A DNA stretch of 32,616 bases from NCBI GenBank assembly GCA_019510095.1, contig JAEKLB010000033.1, forward strand, positions 1 to 32,616, given 5' to 3'. Made by a program: the position numbers and the translations under genes. Source of the stretch: Acidobacteriota bacterium. GTDB taxonomy: Bacteria; Actinomycetota; Acidimicrobiia; Acidimicrobiales; CADCSY01. Positions 5,004 through 32,616 of this stretch are shown in pieces (the stretch's first letter is position 1; each line of letters begins with the position of its first letter). Under the pieces are notes generated by a model, which made no database searches, was not told the origin of the DNA, and saw only the letters and a program-made list of their open reading frames with translations.

Positions 5004-5035
5004 CGCCGGGTTGACAACCGAACGCTGTTGATCCC

Positions 5036-5140
5036 GGGCGGGAGAGTCCCCGCCTCGTGCGGGGCGCCGAAGGAGCAAGTCTCCCCACCAACCTCTCAGG
5101 CACCCGAACCGCCCGGGCGAGGCAACTCTGGAGAGCAGGT
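5036..5140 (+). promoter_or_regulatory. Glycine riboswitch, single aptamer
   Basis: The leader has the conserved glycine-aptamer elements in order: gggcgggagagt at 5036, the invariant core gcgccgaaggagcaa near 5069, ctcaggca near 5096, and the closing actctggagagc ending at 5136. The element binds glycine and switches on glycine-cleavage genes. Only one aptamer fits; the 40 bp between its end and the gcvP ATG cannot hold the second aptamer of the usual tandem form. It lies directly upstream of gcvP, which fits its role exactly. Confidence 0.9.
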
Positions 5141-5175: not shown

Positions 5176-8013
<2,838 letters not shown>

Positions 8014-26100: not shown

Positions 26101-26143
26101 GTCGGGCTGGCGAGATTCGAACTCGCGACCTCTTGACCCCCAG
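26101..26143 (-). repeat. tRNA-Pro(GGG) 3' fragment, left attachment-site repeat
   Basis: Read on the minus strand the 43 bases give an anticodon loop CTGGGGG, 3' anticodon strand TCAAG, variable loop AGGTC, T arm GCGAG-TTCGAAT-CTCGC, acceptor CAGCCCG, then A and C. That is positions 32-74 of a tRNA-Pro(GGG). The 5' half next to it (higher coordinates) does not pair with TCAAG or CAGCCCG, so this is a fragment, not a working tRNA. An identical copy lies at 28583. Confidence 0.8.
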
Positions 26144-26214
26144 ACCGCATATGTCTACCGGTCATGGTTGCTCGCCGTCGGTCACGTGTGGTTCTAGCTG
26201 CGCCTTTGCCGTTC

Positions 26215-26283
26215 GGTCGTTGGTCGTAGTCGGTCGCTGTCGGAGGGGGTCGGTCGGAGTTGCGCTGACATCGCGCTGACATC
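26215..26283. promoter_or_regulatory. Repeat-rich leader of the SIR2-like gene
   Basis: GGTCG occurs at 26215, 26222, 26232 and 26252. It is followed by two perfect adjacent copies of GCGCTGACATC (26262-26272 and 26273-26283), so CTGACA recurs at 26265 and 26276, 11 bp apart. The second copy ends 20 bp before the GTG at 26303. It may bind a regulator or an integrase arm domain. Confidence 0.5.
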
Positions 26284-26302
26284 CCATTCCGCGGCAGACC
26301 CG

Positions 26303-27367
26303 GTGACCACACTGGGGGTCGTGCTTCTCGTCATACTCGGCGCCGGCGCGTCCCATGACTCCGTGTCGCCCGGCGTCGTCGGCAAGCAGCACATGTCCTT
26401 CGCTCATCGACCCCCGCTGGCCGACCACCTCTGCTCGCCCCAGCCGCTCATCTACGGAGAAGCGCTGGACCGCTTTCCGAGCTGCCGGCCGATCATCGAC
26501 CGGCTCAGACGAGCGAACTCAGGACGCTCCCTCGAGGAGGAGTTGGACGAGATCGCCGCTGAGGCCGATGAGGTCCCGGCCCTCCATCGGCAGCTTCTCG
26601 GGTTCAGGTACTACGTCCGCGACGTCATCATCGGATGCGCTGGCGGCTGGCTTCACAGCGCCAACGGTATGACCAACTATGTCAGCCTGGTCAGGACGAT
26701 CGAGCACTGGCGCGCGCCTCGCGACGAGCGCGTCCTCTTCATCACCTTCAACTACGACCTGCTGCTCGAGCGCGCACTGGTCGACGTCGTCGGCGCCCAG
26801 TTCAACCACATTGACAAGTACATCGGGCGGGAGGACTACTTCGTCGTCAAGCCGCACGGTTCGGTGAACTGGGTCCGTCGCATGCTGAATCCGGACATCG
26901 TCCGCAACGACCGCGGCCGGGGCATGGCCCCAGACGTCGTGAACTGGGCAGCGGAGGCTCAGTGGAGCGACAGCATCGACGTGGCCGACGAGGAACCCCT
27001 CAACCGTGGTGGCTTCGAGAACCTCACCATCGACGCGCCCGCGCTCACGGTGCCGCTTCGGCGAAAAGCGCGGTTCGAGTGCCCGGACGCCCACCTCCAT
27101 CTGCTCGGCGAGCTGCTGCCCGAGGTCGACCGTGCACTCATTATCGGTTGGCGGGGTCTCGAAGAGCACTTCACCGAGAACCTGAGCCACGTCGGCCTTC
27201 TGCTGCCGACCCTGATCATCGTCACCGAGTCCGACGAGGCGTCGATCGCCACGCTCGACAACATCGGTGCATGCTTCGGCACCCCTCGTCTCTCCGATGC
27301 GCCTGGCAGTACCAAGGGGTTCTCCGATTTCCTAGCTGGTGGCGGGTTGGCCGACGTTCTCCTCTGA
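26303..27367 (+). CDS. SIR2-like domain protein, candidate defence effector
   Basis: The 354-residue protein has the SIR2-like nucleotide loop GAGAS (13-17, in VILGAGASHD) and PPLADHLC. It also has ITFNYDLLLERAL with Asn150 and Asp152, and KPHGSVNW with His185. These are the positions of the catalytic Asn and His of SIR2-type NADases. Near the C-terminus ALIIGWRGLEEHF matches the end of the fold. There are no membrane segments and no second domain, so it is short and stand-alone. Such proteins commonly deplete NAD+ in abortive anti-phage defence. GTG 26303 or 26321 starts it; no ribosome-binding site is seen. Its last 36 bp overlap the DUF4062 gene on the other strand. Confidence 0.85.
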   Translation: MTTLGVVLLVILGAGASHDSVSPGVVGKQHMSFAHRPPLADHLCSPQPLIYGEALDRFPSCRPIIDRLRRANSGRSLEEELDEIAAEADEVPALHRQLLGFRYYVRDVIIGCAGGWLHSANGMTNYVSLVRTIEHWRAPRDERVLFITFNYDLLLERALVDVVGAQFNHIDKYIGREDYFVVKPHGSVNWVRRMLNPDIVRNDRGRGMAPDVVNWAAEAQWSDSIDVADEEPLNRGGFENLTIDAPALTVPLRRKARFECPDAHLHLLGELLPEVDRALIIGWRGLEEHFTENLSHVGLLLPTLIIVTESDEASIATLDNIGACFGTPRLSDAPGSTKGFSDFLAGGGLADVLL

Positions 27368-28495
27368 CTCGGCAGGCCCGTCGACGTCCGCCTCCACGTC
27401 CTTTGGAATGGCCCTGAGCTGGATCATGCGAGTGTCACCGAAGGGCGTCAGAGTCCAGTAGGTGCCGGTGTCCGTGACACTGCGACGCTTGTCGCTCGTG
27501 GCGATCAGACCTAGGGCCTTGAGCTGCACGAGGACCGTGCCGAAGTCTTCGTCAGCGATCAGTATGCGGTAGTCGCTGAGGTCCCCCGACCCGACTTCCG
27601 GCTCCATGTCATCCCGCTCCTTACGGAGCTTCCGCACTATCTGGTCGCGACCGAAGACCCAGAACTCTCGCCTGGCCCAGGCCTCGAGTTCGGTCTTCAG
27701 CTTCGATTGCTCGCACTCGTGAATGAGGTGTGGCGCGACACCACCAAAAATGTCATCCCAGGTCGGCCGGGGAGAGATCCAGAGGCTCTGGTTGTCGACC
27801 TTGTATCCGGTTCGGCGAAACGTTGCCCTCATGAGCAATGGAAGACGGAACACGTCCTGCCCCTGCGCGAGGCTTTCGGTTCCCGGAGGCGGCGCCGTTC
27901 TGATCGTCTTCACCTGCCGCTCGAGCTCATCGATGCGCGTCCTGGCCTCGGAGAGCGCCCGCAACGACTCCGTCTCAGTCGCCTGGTCCGCGCGAATCCA
28001 TCCGACGGCCGGGTACTGCTTGGCGAATCGGTTGAAGCTCAGCGCCACCTGCCCTGCGAGTCCGTCGGCGGAGGTCCAGTACTTGACGTGCTTGGAGCCC
28101 TCGACCTTCTTCCGAAAGGCGTCCAGCTTCGCCTGCATGTCTTCGGACCGCTCGGTGAGCTTCGCGGGGATCTGGCCAGGGTCGCCATGGAGGAACGCGA
28201 GCACAGGCTTCCCGCGGGCCACGGCGTGGTCGTACTCCTTCTCGGTGTAGCTCACGTCGTCGACCGGATCGACCGAGCCGTACTTCCCGCCGACGACGAG
28301 GAGGTAGTAGTCGGAGTCGTCGATCACCCGCTGGATGAGAGTCCATGCGTCGTCGTCCGCCGCCGGGAACAACTCCATTCCGGCGGGGAAGGCGTCGCAC
28401 GAAAGGAGCGCGTGGATGACGGCCTGTCGTTCGGCGAGCAAATCGAGATAGGTCGAGCTGACGAAGACCTGAAACCGTCGCTCGTCACTCGCCAT
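27332..28495 (-). CDS. DUF4062 protein with coiled coil, partner of the SIR2-like gene
   Basis: The 387-residue protein begins with a DUF4062 domain (about 8-105). Visible are FQVFVSSTYLDLLAERQAV, FPAGMELFPA, IDDSDYYLLVVGGKYGS, YTEKEYDHA and GKPVLAFLHG. This fold is related to TIR and nucleoside-deoxyribosyltransferase-like domains and is common next to defence effectors. A short coiled coil (about 160-190) is followed by a C-terminal half with DRPTWDDIFGG-like and WARREFWVFG segments and a winged-helix-like end (DLSDYRILIADEDFG... LKALGLI... YWTLTPFG); I cannot name it. ATG 28495 is used; GTG 28504 adds three residues. Sensor or effector role is inferred. Confidence 0.82.
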   Translation of the reverse strand: MASDERRFQVFVSSTYLDLLAERQAVIHALLSCDAFPAGMELFPAADDDAWTLIQRVIDDSDYYLLVVGGKYGSVDPVDDVSYTEKEYDHAVARGKPVLAFLHGDPGQIPAKLTERSEDMQAKLDAFRKKVEGSKHVKYWTSADGLAGQVALSFNRFAKQYPAVGWIRADQATETESLRALSEARTRIDELERQVKTIRTAPPPGTESLAQGQDVFRLPLLMRATFRRTGYKVDNQSLWISPRPTWDDIFGGVAPHLIHECEQSKLKTELEAWARREFWVFGRDQIVRKLRKERDDMEPEVGSGDLSDYRILIADEDFGTVLVQLKALGLIATSDKRRSVTDTGTYWTLTPFGDTRMIQLRAIPKDVEADVDGPAESEENVGQPATS

Positions 28496-28505
28496 CGTGA
28501 TCACA

Positions 28506-28522
28506 CTGACAATCTGCTGACA
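28506..28522. promoter_or_regulatory. CTGACA pair upstream of the DUF4062 gene
   Basis: CTGACA at 28506-28511 and again at 28517-28522, exactly 11 bp apart as before the SIR2-like gene. It lies 11-27 bp upstream of the DUF4062 ATG and 61 bp from the right tRNA repeat. Confidence 0.5.
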
Positions 28523-28582
28523 TTGGCGCCTCTCGGGCCAAGGTCAGCGGCCCGCCGCGGCCGTCTGACCTGCATCTTCGTG

Positions 28583-28625
28583 GTCGGGCTGGCGAGATTC
28601 GAACTCGCGACCTCTTGACCCCCAG
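28583..28625 (-). repeat. tRNA-Pro(GGG) 3' fragment, right attachment-site repeat
   Basis: The 43 bases are identical to 26101-26143 and give positions 32-74 of tRNA-Pro(GGG) on the minus strand. The neighbouring higher-coordinate sequence again cannot form the anticodon or acceptor stem. This is thus a second att-type remnant, separating the SIR2/DUF4062 cassette from the next element. Confidence 0.8.
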
Positions 28626-28722
28626 TCACTGCAAACACCGGGTTGTCGTAGGCACCGTATCCCTGACCAGCATCTCCGAGGCGGAGGCACTCCTCCGAGA
28701 AGGCAGAACTCCGGTCGTTGGC

Positions 28723-28738
28723 TGTCAGTGGGCTGTCA
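28723..28738. promoter_or_regulatory. TGTCA pair right of the second tRNA repeat
   Basis: TGTCA at 28723-28727 and 28734-28738, again 11 bp apart, is the reverse complement of the TGACA core seen at the other two sites. It lies 98 bp right of the repeat, in the leader of the next element. Confidence 0.45.
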
Positions 28739-28776
28739 ACCACAGGGGTCCCATATGCCTGTCACACCTCCCCCGT

Positions 28777-28782
28777 AGCCTC
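28777..28782 (+). promoter_or_regulatory. Candidate -10 element (TAGCCT) for the small-protein/DUF6338 pair
   Basis: TAGCCT fits TANNNT. Transcription would start near 28789, which excludes the ATG at 28783 and favours the GTG at 28813 with its GGAG site at 28801. Confidence 0.4.
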
Positions 28783-28812
28783 ATGGTGGACCCGAAGACA
28801 GGAGCTTCCAAC

Positions 28813-29016
28813 GTGGCCGAAGACAAGGAACACCCCACCCCAAGCACCCCCCCGAGCCAGGGTGACGTTGCGCTCAGCAAGAGCGGTGAGGCCCGAGAGG
28901 GCGTGTACCTGCACCCCGACAGGGATGTTCCGATCAGTTTCGATCCGGGTCCGGTGAACATGGCGCCGATGGACGCTGCACCCACCGATACTCCCGCCGC
29001 CCCTCCTGCCGAGTAG
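28813..29016 (+). CDS. Small acidic, Pro-rich disordered protein
   Basis: The 67-residue protein (VAEDKEHPTPSTPPSQGD..., REGVYLHPDRDVPISFDPG, end DTPAAPPAE) is low in hydrophobic residues except one short YLHPDRDVPISF stretch. It is thus mostly disordered. GTG 28813 follows GGAG by eight bases, and the ATG at 28783 lies too close to the -10. The next gene (DUF6338-type) starts nine bases after its stop, so they are co-translated. The function is unknown; it may be a partner or regulator of the membrane protein. Confidence 0.6.
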   Translation: MAEDKEHPTPSTPPSQGDVALSKSGEAREGVYLHPDRDVPISFDPGPVNMAPMDAAPTDTPAAPPAE

Positions 29017-29025
29017 TCCAGGCTG

Positions 29026-29664
29026 ATGCCGACCTCGCCCGTTGGCATCCTGCTCTTCCTCGCAACGCTCTCGCCGGGATATGCGTTCCTTCGAGTAGCG
29101 GAGCGTCGGTCGCTACGGCCAGCCAGATCGTCGCTGCTGGAAACGATCGAGATGCTGGTGATCGGAGCAACATGCTCTGTCGTCGCACTTGGACTCCTCG
29201 TCGTGGTGCAGGACATCGGCTGGTTTCGTCTGGCGTCCCCACGGCTACTGATCCAGGACTGGCATGGCTATGCCGTCGATGCGCCTCTTCGGACGATTGT
29301 TACTGGCCTTTTTGGCCTCGTAACGGCTTGCGGAATCGGCATGGCAGCCGCTTGGGGCCTAAATCGGCATTCCCCCGCCAACTTCCACATCGCCAAGTCG
29401 GTCTTCTTCACCGCACTCGGTCCGCAGGACAAAGGAAAGCTGCCGTGGGTGACAGTCACGGTCGAGAACGGTGACTGTTGGGAGGGCTACGTCCGTGGGG
29501 TGCCGATGAGTGGAAGTGACAGACCGGATCTGTCCTTGCGGTCACCTATCTTCCTCACCAGAGGTGGTCAACGGTTTCGGGCGGGCATCGAGGCGCTCGT
29601 CCTACCCGGCGACCAGATCCACTCCGTGATGGTGCGTTACGACCCTCCGTCGGTTGCTGAGTAG
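29026..29664 (+). CDS. DUF6338-type membrane protein
   Basis: The 212-residue protein has an N-terminal membrane helix (VGILLFLATLSPGYAFLRVAE), then two more hydrophobic stretches (about 43-65, 90-113). A soluble C-terminal part follows, with PWVTVTVENGDCWEGYVRG and LSLRSPIFLTRGG, a small beta domain of the DUF6338 pattern. The family is of unknown role and often found near mobile or defence regions. ATG 29026 is nine bases after the previous stop. Third-position G/C bias is weaker than in core genes. It is followed by a 152-bp gap with a weak AAGCC-AATC-GGCTT stem near 29714. Confidence 0.68.
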   Translation: MPTSPVGILLFLATLSPGYAFLRVAERRSLRPARSSLLETIEMLVIGATCSVVALGLLVVVQDIGWFRLASPRLLIQDWHGYAVDAPLRTIVTGLFGLVTACGIGMAAAWGLNRHSPANFHIAKSVFFTALGPQDKGKLPWVTVTVENGDCWEGYVRGVPMSGSDRPDLSLRSPIFLTRGGQRFRAGIEALVLPGDQIHSVMVRYDPPSVAE

Positions 29665-29816
29665 CGGATTACTCACACAGCGCTCAACCCGCCGGTCGAC
29701 CAACTAGTTCGAAGCCAATCGGCTTACGGGTCCGCCGTCGGCCGGCCCTGGCCCTTCGTTGGTTGGGATGACCACTAGAGCGCAGACATCGAAGCCTTCA
29801 GCCGAAAGGGACGAGG

Positions 29817-30083
29817 ATGTTTCTCAATCGCCGGGACCTAGAGGATGGACCAAAGAGCTTCGCCGTGATCCTTTCCATTGGTATCCCTCTACTCGTCAGC
29901 TACCAAGCGTGCGGCAGGAACCTCGTCCTAGCTGTTCCAATCACGGCGGCCTTCTGGTTCGGAACAGGCTCGCTCTGGCGAGCCGCTAACAGGCGTGGCG
30001 ATGTCAAGCGCCAGAGGCGCCTAGACGAAGCCGGTCAGCGGCAGGAAGCACTCAGGGCCACAAGGCCCGAGGGCTATCGCTGA
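29817..30083 (+). CDS. Small membrane protein with basic tail
   Basis: The 88-residue protein starts MFLNRRDLEDGPKSFAVILS. It has a hydrophobic segment (about 15-35) and a second one (about 37-51, LVLAVPITAAFWFGTG), then a basic C-terminal helix (RRGDVKRQRRLDEAGQRQEALR). A gggacgagg ribosome-binding site precedes ATG 29817. The two-helix plus cationic tail layout suits a small membrane-active protein; no family is recognised. It is convergent with the XRE-led operon. Confidence 0.55.
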   Translation: MFLNRRDLEDGPKSFAVILSIGIPLLVSYQACGRNLVLAVPITAAFWFGTGSLWRAANRRGDVKRQRRLDEAGQRQEALRATRPEGYR

Positions 30084-30117
30084 AGACTCCAACCTCTCTA
30101 GGTGAGGGACTGCTTCG

Positions 30118-30483
30118 TCAGTCTCGCTGCCGAAGCTTGAACCCGAGCTGCTTCTCAAGCTGCTGTCGTGGAGTGAGGGGCGTGCATTTGACGAAGCGGA
30201 ACTGAGTCTCAGACCGAAGCCACGTCGGATCGGTTCTCCAGCCATACCTGGCGAGTTCCTGACGGCAGCCGTTGACCACGCCACCGAGTCCCTGCGGCGT
30301 GGGCGGGTAATCGGCCTTGCGGTCAAGAGGTACCCGAGTCATCAGGGCGGCGTGCAACTGGGAGATAGTTCCAGCGAATGTGCCTTCGGTTCTCAGGAAG
30401 CCCAACAGTGTTGGCAACGTGCCCGAGATCGGGTAGCGCCGTTGTCCGTCTGCTTTGTGCTCGGTATCCCGCCAGGACGTCAC
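30118..30483 (-). CDS. Hypothetical protein with replication-type winged-helix pattern
   Basis: The 121-residue protein contains GTISQLHAALMTRVPLDRK..YPPTPQGLGGVVNGCRQEL and WLRSETQFRFVKCTPL. The order helix - YPPTPQGLG - ARYGW resembles the winged-helix at the C-terminus of phage and plasmid primases or replicative helicases (tagelhaal... WPktPqgLg... rrlaplL). It is alone here, without a primase. GTG 30483 shares one base with the upstream TAG, so it is translationally coupled to the 252-residue gene. It is the last gene of the XRE operon. Fold by motif only. Confidence 0.5.
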   Translation of the reverse strand: MTSWRDTEHKADGQRRYPISGTLPTLLGFLRTEGTFAGTISQLHAALMTRVPLDRKADYPPTPQGLGGVVNGCRQELARYGWRTDPTWLRSETQFRFVKCTPLTPRQQLEKQLGFKLRQRD

Positions 30484-31241
30484 TACTGGTCAGCCTCAAG
30501 CTCAGCGATGCGCTGACGTTGAGCGTCGATGGTGCCGAGCATCTCAAGCGCAACCCGTGGGGTCCATTGATCCAAGAACTTCTTGTTCACATCGCCGTTG
30601 TTCGACCACTGCCGTCCGGTGGTACTGACGTACGCAATCGTGGAGTTGTCTTCGACGTAGGCGGCCGCCGCCGCCCGCCTCAGGTCCAGGAACGGATCTG
30701 CGGCACGGGCTTCAGCTTCAGCACGAAACTCAGCTTCGACTAGCTCCGCTTCCGTGGGCGCAAACACCAGGGGGACCGGGTTGCCAGTCGACTCCATGAA
30801 GGCCCTCCAGTTCTGGATGGCCCCGAACAACAGAGCGAGCCCCTTCATGGCGCCCTGCCCAGAACCGACCGGGCAATCGCTATCGCCCATCAGCTCCGGG
30901 GCGTACCGACCGTCGCCCGCCTCCACAGTGCGAAGTAGCGAGCCGGTCATCGAGAAGAGGAACTGGAAGTTCTGGACGCTCAGCCCTGCGCATTCCCGAA
31001 GTGCTCGCTGTACCCGACCGTCCAACTCAGACAGAGAAACGGGCTGAACTCCACGAACGACACCAGTCACGACGTCATGCACCAGCGCCTGGCTTGTTGA
31101 GAACGGGGTCAGCGGCCCCGAAAGATTGAAGTTGTACCGCTCTGCAAGTTCAGGCCACGAGATCTCCTGCGGAGCCTCTTCAACCTCGAGCAAGCCCATC
31201 AGCTCGGCCGGTCCAGCCGGCCTCCCAGTTGCTCTAGTCAT
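30483..31241 (-). CDS. Hypothetical protein, 252 residues, mobile-element operon
   Basis: An uncharacterised protein. The first half has LMGLLEVEEAPQEISWPELAERYNF and LQRAL-type helices. The middle has DSDCPVGSGQGAMKGLALLFGAIQNWRAFM. The last 60 residues are acidic-helical (AELVEAEFRAEAEARAADPFLDLRRAA) and end in IDAQRQRIAELEADQ, a short coiled coil. There is no membrane segment or clear catalytic motif. ATG 31241 overlaps the upstream stop by eight bases and the downstream start by one, so it lies in the middle of a tightly coupled operon. The role is not predicted. Confidence 0.6.
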   Translation of the reverse strand: MTRATGRPAGPAELMGLLEVEEAPQEISWPELAERYNFNLSGPLTPFSTSQALVHDVVTGVVRGVQPVSLSELDGRVQRALRECAGLSVQNFQFLFSMTGSLLRTVEAGDGRYAPELMGDSDCPVGSGQGAMKGLALLFGAIQNWRAFMESTGNPVPLVFAPTEAELVEAEFRAEAEARAADPFLDLRRAAAAAYVEDNSTIAYVSTTGRQWSNNGDVNKKFLDQWTPRVALEMLGTIDAQRQRIAELEADQ

Positions 31242-31437
31242 CCTGGTGCTGGTCCTTGCGCACGACTCGTCGAGCGATCACGAAGCCGTATCGGTTGCGC
31301 TCCTCGATCACTTCGGATCGGCCGGCAGCTACGTCCTGGCCGTCCGAGTGATGCTTGGCGAAGAAGTCGGCCCATCGCTCGGCATTGGTCAGCTTCAGCT
31401 TGCGCACCGAAGGGGTGCTCTCGGGGACATCAGTCAT
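31234..31437 (-). CDS. Hypothetical 67-residue protein, mobile-element operon
   Basis: A small charged protein, MTDVPESTPSVRKLKLTNAE.., then RWADFFAKHHSDGQDVAAGRSEVIEERNR and RYGFVIARRVVRKDQHQDD. It has no membrane helix; helical middle and basic end suggest protein or nucleic acid contact. ATG 31437 overlaps the XRE stop (ATGA), so translation is coupled to the regulator. This position, between an XRE repressor and an unknown gene, is where antitoxins, excisionase-like or adaptor proteins often lie; no motif decides. Confidence 0.55.
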   Translation of the reverse strand: MTDVPESTPSVRKLKLTNAERWADFFAKHHSDGQDVAAGRSEVIEERNRYGFVIARRVVRKDQHQDD

Positions 31438-31739
31438 TCGCTCGCCCCCGATGTGCTCGCAGTAGTCGATGCGCCGGCAATGAGCGGCCGGTCGTAGTTC
31501 ATCTCGCTCGCCAGAACAGCCAGCAGGCATCGGAGCTTGCGGGCGATTACCGGCGTCGGCCGCCGATCACCTCTCTCGTAGTTCTCGATGGTGTGGGCAC
31601 TGACATCGAGGAGTGAAGCAACCTCAGTCCTCGACAGCGACGATCCCGTTCTGAACGCACGGATCTGCTCAGGTGTCGGATCAAACGGCAACGGCGGCGT
31701 TACCCGCATTGCCCTGGTGAGTCGTTCTCGATCGTGCAT
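31434..31739 (-). CDS. XRE-family helix-turn-helix regulator
   Basis: The 101-residue protein has the XRE/Cro fold: EQIRAFRTGSSLSRTEVASLLDVS, then AHTIENYERGDRRPTPVIARKL (about 24-65). It is followed by a short helical tail (CLLAVLASEMNYDRP) that may dimerise. Genes of this sort repress their own operon. It is first in the minus-strand operon and overlaps the next gene by ATGA. The 159-bp gap upstream (31740-31898) separates it from the sigma-like gene and should hold its promoter; no clear operator was found there. ATG 31739 is used. Confidence 0.8.
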   Translation of the reverse strand: MHDRERLTRAMRVTPPLPFDPTPEQIRAFRTGSSLSRTEVASLLDVSAHTIENYERGDRRPTPVIARKLRCLLAVLASEMNYDRPLIAGASTTASTSGASE

Positions 31740-31898
31740 TAGACGATCTGCTCCATCTGTGAGTGCCAGCCGGCATGGCCGAAGCTGGAACGGAATTGGG
31801 AGAGGAGCGAGTGGTGTCGCACACCGCAGTCCGCAGGCCTGCCTCGCCCCTCATAGGTCTATCTACCGACGCCGTGACAGCCCCACGGGTCCCCCGCC

Positions 31899-32612
31899 TC
31901 AAGTTGCAGGTCGATGCGAACGACGTCGTGGCTTGCGCAGCCACCGGAGCCGTCCCTCGTATGCCGTGACGGCCTCAGGTTCGGAGAGCGCCAGTAGCCA
32001 CTCCAGCCGGCCAAGGGCCTTGGTGTGCGACCGCTGCACCTGCTTCTTGACTCGCTCCCGGCCCGCTCGATCCATGTCCTTGCTCAGGTCCATGCCGATG
32101 CGGTGGAGAGAATGACCCTCGAAGTAGTGCCGACGAAGAATGAGCTGTTGTTCCGGGTCAAGCAGCGCCATCGACCCGAGCAGGGATCCGAGGAGCGCAG
32201 ACACTTCAGTCGGGGGGTGGTCGTCGTTGAGACTCAGCCGCCAAGCGGCGAGTTCATCCCGGTCGGCTTCCAACGTTGCACCTAGCCAGCGACACGCCTC
32301 CCAGTAGGTCCACTGGACGGCTCGCCGGTAGTTGCCCTCAGGGTCGTCCTTCCGGACGGAGGACGGCCAGAGGAGCCACAGGTGGTAAGCGCCATCAATG
32401 GCGTAGTCCACTGCCTCTTCGATCAGATGCGGTCGTTCCGCAGCGATCCGCCGCCACTTGCGGTTGACCTTCGTCCTAGCGGCCCTGCGAAGGTGTGTCC
32501 AGGTGCGACTTCCGAAGATTTCTTCGGGGTCGCCCGCAAACACGGGGTCGGGTTGTCCCGGAAGTTGTATTAGTTCTACGAAGCCTGGTTGAACCGAGCC
32601 GGCCGGCCCCAA
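31899..32612 (-). CDS. Sigma-70-like protein (start at or beyond the window edge)
   Basis: The 237-residue frame contains a sigma-2-like helical part (about 35-105, with AVDYAIDGAYHLWLLWPSSVRK and EGNYRRAVQWTYWEACRWL) and a clear region-4-like part (about 143-200: LLGSMALLDPEQQLILRRHY, FEGHSLHRIGMDLSKDMDR, KKQVQRSHTKALGRLEW). A basic end follows. It would guide RNA polymerase to element promoters. Only a TTG at 32612 is available within the window, and the frame is still open to the right edge, so the true start may be outside. It is read in the same direction as the XRE operon but 159 bp away from it. Confidence 0.65.
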   Translation of the reverse strand: MGPAGSVQPGFVELIQLPGQPDPVFAGDPEEIFGSRTWTHLRRAARTKVNRKWRRIAAERPHLIEEAVDYAIDGAYHLWLLWPSSVRKDDPEGNYRRAVQWTYWEACRWLGATLEADRDELAAWRLSLNDDHPPTEVSALLGSLLGSMALLDPEQQLILRRHYFEGHSLHRIGMDLSKDMDRAGRERVKKQVQRSHTKALGRLEWLLALSEPEAVTAYEGRLRWLRKPRRRSHRPAT

Positions 32613-32616
32613 CTCA

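Follow-up and report, generated by a model that had tools for sequence, protein, structure and literature searches.

What does a short sequence that occurs twice near the right end of this stretch of DNA delimit, and how far does the foreign DNA beside it extend? The stretch analysed (the window, 32,616 nt) is the whole of contig G000:C26, from an assembly of 227 contigs and 2.95 Mb (97% complete, 3% contamination). The two copies (26101-26143 and 28583-28625) are identical 43-bp repeats, and they are the only sequence of at least 20 bp present twice in the window. On the minus strand they read CTGGGGGTCAAGAGGTC-GCGAG-TTCGAAT-CTCGC-CAGCCCGAC, i.e., the anticodon loop with GGG, the variable loop, the T-arm and the acceptor strand of a tRNA-Pro(GGG). 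ARAGORN called no tRNA in the window, and none at either copy. Hence, neither repeat is an intact tRNA: both are 3' fragments of a minus-strand tRNA that extend from its anticodon loop to its acceptor end, as a sequence-only reading of the window had recognised. Both also matched Rfam weakly, at a relaxed threshold, near the 3' end of the tmRNA model. The same reading had expected a second element to start at the right repeat and to run past the window, up to an intact minus-strand tRNA-Pro(GGG) and a tyrosine integrase next to it.

The sequence to the right of the window is provided by another contig of the assembly, C166. The final 139 bases of C26 (32478-32616, plus strand) are identical to the opening 139 of C166, and a search of the whole assembly returned this sequence at the end of C26 and the start of C166 only. 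The reading frame of a sigma-like gene stays open through the junction, and G+C content hardly changes across it (0.623 in the part of the window right of the repeats, 0.621 in C166:1-4900). The join has support besides the overlap, since gene order is conserved in six related genomes (G007, G051, G013, G022, G054 and G037). In each of these, a single contig carries left-side genes (nucleotidyltransferase, pgsA or an SOS-response-type gene, as available), a tRNA-Pro(GGG) and SpoIIE, with order and orientation unchanged. The relatives named here are for the most part Acidimicrobiales.

Could the join be an artefact of assembly or binning, with a different sequence to the right of position 32,616? 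The assembly is fragmented (227 contigs, 3% contamination) and the assembler left C26 and C166 unjoined. Yet the exact 139-bp overlap is confined to these two contig ends, G+C is equal on either side, and the chromosomal halves are adjacent in the six genomes, in the same orientation and with the same tRNA between them; an artefact is thus very hard to credit. Overlap, G+C and the relatives' gene order together support the join as real. That the two contigs were left separate indicates that the assembly graph was broken there, perhaps by strain variation or low coverage, and some cells may carry extra sequence between C26 and C166.

Across the two contigs, the units at the site are laid out as follows.

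26101..26143, minus strand: tRNA-Pro(GGG) 3'-half fragment 1, a 43-bp exact repeat; outer attachment site adjoining the left chromosome
26144..28582, no strand: integrase-less cassette, 2.4 kb, 64% G+C, between fragments 1 and 2
28583..28625, minus strand: tRNA-Pro(GGG) 3'-half fragment 2; attachment site common to the cassette and element 2
28626..32616, no strand: in-window part of element 2; the remainder lies in C166, between base 140 and the intact tRNA
C166:5025-5102, minus strand: intact tRNA-Pro(GGG), found by tRNA calling

We therefore find on C166 what had been expected there: the second element does run past the window, for 8,921 bp in all, and ends at an intact minus-strand tRNA-Pro(GGG) that lies 126 bp from a tyrosine integrase. 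The order fragment, cassette, fragment, element 2, intact tRNA is borne out by C166, by the step in G+C and by the gene order of the relatives. Core genes directly to the right of the window would have spoken for another layout; they are absent, and start only beyond the intact tRNA, with the following genes.

C166:5363-6442, minus strand: SpoIIE-type phosphatase, core gene past the intact tRNA
C166:6498-7808, minus strand: Der, core gene past the intact tRNA
C166, past Der, minus strand: DUF512-type gene (name read from sequence)
C166, after the DUF512-type gene, plus strand: IspH (name read from sequence)

We are confident that two site-specific units lie in tandem here, at the 3' end of a single tRNA-Pro(GGG) gene, and that one of them, element 2, is an integrative element of 8.9 kb that encodes its own tyrosine integrase. 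No tRNA-Pro(GGG) besides the intact one on C166 was called in the assembly. Element 2 measures 8,921 bp core to core and is bounded by a 21-bp exact repeat. Its G+C content is 62.3% vs about 71% in the flanks, and the values change stepwise along the locus (left flank 0.707, cassette 0.643, element 2 0.623, right flank 0.706). It has the traits of the tRNA-integrated class of elements: a tyrosine integrase close to the tRNA (126 bp from its 3' end), a direct repeat of the 3' part of the tRNA at the far end, 8,921 bp away, and a position within a gene order conserved across six relatives. In the left part of the window, a glycine riboswitch (5029-5121; RF00504, 71 bits) lies directly upstream of a gcvP-like gene (5176-8013).

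The attachment sites suggest an exchange of tRNA halves. Fragment 1 matches the intact tRNA exactly over 18 bp, and fragment 2 does so over the 21-bp repeat at 28608-28628, TGACTGGGGGTCAAGAGGTCG. The T-stem is GGAGG/CCTCT in the intact tRNA vs GCGAG/CTCGC in both fragments, a mismatch that limits the exact identity with the tRNA to 18-21 bp and that is explained if the element brought its own 3' half. The displaced T-stem is also present in the intact tRNA-Pro(GGG) of a relative (G154), and fragment 1 is taken to be the original 3' half, displaced. With element 2 removed in silico, the resulting tRNA-Pro(GGG) is well formed and its T-stem has five pairs; with the cassette removed as well, a well-formed one results too. 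The predicted circle junction of element 2 formed no tRNA in silico.

In the standard route of tyrosine integrases, a region of the tRNA recombines with a matching copy carried by the element. The anatomy of the locus suggests that the integrase of element 2 would use the region of the anticodon loop for this exchange. Integration would then rebuild the tRNA with the 3' half supplied by element 2, and the resident 3' half would be pushed to the far end of the element, at 28583-28625.

Does element 2 carry the genes of a mobile element? Its gene content, on both contigs, is the following.

29026..29664, plus strand: DUF6338 membrane protein, 212 aa, cargo (PF19865, 90.6 bits)
29817..30083, plus strand: small protein, 88 aa, membrane segment likely on visual inspection (open reading frame)
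30118..30483, minus strand: 121-aa protein (DUF6401 match, sub-threshold)
30483..31241, minus strand: 252-aa orphan protein (weak Ead/Ea22-like C-terminus)
31434..31739, minus strand: XRE/HTH_31 transcriptional regulator (PF13560 and PF01381 above cut-off; phage repressor PHROGs)
31899..32616, minus strand: sigma-region-4-like protein, extending into C166 (PF04545, Sigma70_r4, 17.6 bits, below the cut-off of 24.1)
C166:882-1586, minus strand: short serine recombinase (PHROG match; looks complete)
C166:1995-3308, minus strand: 437-aa protein without family, L006 (open reading frame)
C166:3312-3632, minus strand: 106-aa protein (open reading frame)
C166:3747-4898, minus strand: tyrosine integrase (PF00589, 6e-24)

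The gene calls made earlier from the letters alone stood in part. The XRE regulator was recovered with both PF13560 and PF01381, and the larger of the proposed membrane proteins is the DUF6338 protein. The sigma-like call stayed below threshold, and the replication-type winged helix proposed for 30118-30483 found no above-threshold support. A search for a PDB relative of this 121-aa protein by sequence gave none, and the 88-aa protein (29817-30083) had no match in Pfam or PHROG. No relatives of the 252-aa protein turned up in viral contigs, in phage records or in the 396 other genomes searched within the order. The 437-aa protein has distant relatives only, one on a Streptomyces plasmid (28% identity) and one in another genome of its phylum (32%). 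The middle of this last protein (GFEV...DLRI...WEVLAEVRG) has, by eye and without library support, a likeness to a PD-(D/E)XK nuclease core.

Matches to PHROGs in element 2 are limited to regulators, the serine recombinase and the integrase. The integrase is full length, with the GLR, HELRH, LGH and Y catalytic motifs present, and its best matches among phage records are integrases (around 33% identity). No conjugation family was found among the main ORFs of element 2, so that it does not class as an ICE; no phage structural or packaging gene was matched, which sets it apart from prophages and satellites. An IME would carry a relaxase and/or an oriT, and no relaxase was found among the ORFs scanned. 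We found no close copy of element 2 in other genomes. It is a new, previously undescribed sequence of an ordinary kind.

With this gene content, element 2 could be a decayed and immobile island, the remnant of a larger element that lost its transfer genes and the ability to excise. None of the main ORFs was recognised as a gene for a relaxase, conjugation, a capsid or packaging, and two of the proteins are almost without relatives, as one might expect of such a remnant. But the integrase is full length and keeps its catalytic motifs, the short serine recombinase looks complete, and the 21-bp exact core is kept at both attachment sites. We regard decay as conceivable, but rather unlikely. We infer that element 2 still excises and can carry the cassette along. 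Since no transfer gene was found, it most likely passes from cell to cell by hitch-hiking on another element or phage.

The cassette between the two fragments holds two genes, convergent and overlapping.

26303-27367, plus strand: SIR2-like gene (PF13289, 22.1 bits, just below the 24.5 cut-off; FNYD and KPHGS motifs)
27332-28504, minus strand: DUF4062 gene (PF13271, 7e-26; TEKEY motif at residue 87)

No recombinase was found among the cassette ORFs. With 43-bp att-like repeats at both ends and only the SIR2-like and DUF4062 genes inside, the cassette resembles a cis-mobilizable element (CIME). Its movement would, as for a CIME, depend on the integrase of element 2 or of a related element. DUF4062 proteins were described as TIR-like NADases in the antiphage system Swarozyc (2026 preprint, PMC13174449), which makes both the SIR2-like and the DUF4062 protein possible NAD consumers. 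One could go further and see in the cassette a minimal defence unit of two predicted NAD-consuming proteins that is not decayed, and that routinely moves at tRNA-Pro(GGG) by means of the integrase of the neighbouring element. We think this improbable.

How did the two units come to lie side by side? Either order of insertion leads to the identical layout, so that the arrangement does not tell which unit came first. The trailer of fragment 2 resembles the 3' trailers of the relatives' tRNAs, and this likeness weakly favours the cassette having arrived first. The comparison of 3' trailers was dropped as an arbiter of the order of arrival, as both orders give one final arrangement. That arrangement would also result from a single integration, if the cassette and element 2 (11.4 kb together) had arrived as one composite with an internal att copy. 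CIME-ICE tandems have been seen to transfer by conjugation (PMC5704250), and the G+C of the cassette is similar to that of element 2 (0.643 vs 0.623). However, the 43 bp in which fragments 1 and 2 are identical take in the T-arm, whereas the T-arm of the tRNA is now different. A composite would thus require donor and recipient to have shared exactly the same T-arm, which is possible within one species. Overall, a single integration seems unlikely to us, and we retain the reading of two site-specific units stacked at one tRNA gene.

Such stacking has precedents. In the accretion of CIMEs with IMEs or ICEs, an att site is followed by an integrase-less unit, a shared att site, a unit with a tyrosine integrase and an att site in the intact target gene (PMC5704250). 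The tandems of ICESt1-related elements and of IME_Sag2603_tRNAlys (at a tRNA or another conserved 3' end) have the same order of units as found here. They differ from it in phylum and in genes; here, no relaxase or transfer gene was found, and excision and joint transfer are predictions. Dehalococcoides genomes carry islands at ssrA that lie in tandem, separated by repeats of the 3' end of the RNA gene; an integration module is present in some and absent from others (PMC3146451). The likeness lies in the tandem islands at one RNA gene, but those islands use a CcrB-like serine recombinase and a tmRNA gene, where we find a tyrosine integrase and tRNA-Pro(GGG). Closer at hand, islands in Acidimicrobiales (G204, G230, G008, G031 and others) have, as here, a related tyrosine integrase beside a tRNA, although their integrases were, in one comparison, at most around 43% identical to that of element 2.

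The same tRNA is occupied in other genomes. In seven other genomes, a related integrase has a tRNA-Pro(GGG) within 1.5 kb (G008, G031, G204 and G230, and loci L202, L205 and L206), a count that is not a frequency because G204 and G230 were chosen for their repeats or integrases. A fragment and an intact tRNA-Pro(GGG) are found together on a contig, 14.0 kb apart in G204, 10.5 kb in G216 and 5.1 kb in G289; G329 has two tRNA-Pro(GGG) fragments 4.4 kb apart. Other related integrases in the order adjoin tRNA-Val, -Ser, -Lys and -Pro(TGG). The 5.1-kb locus of G289 (L181, C31:5127-10329) holds, besides the intact tRNA-Pro(GGG) and a 3' tRNA fragment, an integrase and a 532-aa protein with a P-loop motif (GTGKTHALR), and looks like a minimal cargo-plus-integrase unit. 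The locus of G329 (L183, C85:64-4477) has no match to the element 2 integrase between its two 3' fragments, and is possibly another integrase-less cassette at tRNA-Pro(GGG). Across the order, the anticodon-loop region of tRNA-Pro(GGG) hardly varies, whereas its T-stem differs widely from genome to genome; incoming elements that replace the 3' half again and again could be the cause.

The region is thus a clear but ordinary stacking of DNA elements at one tRNA. A structural prediction made from raw sequence alone was confirmed on a contig outside the window, and a defence-like cassette and an integrase-bearing element are now placed in one stack, a kind of structure that is well known. For the Acidimicrobiales, the tRNA-Pro(GGG) between the pgsA region and SpoIIE-Der is a recurrent integration site.
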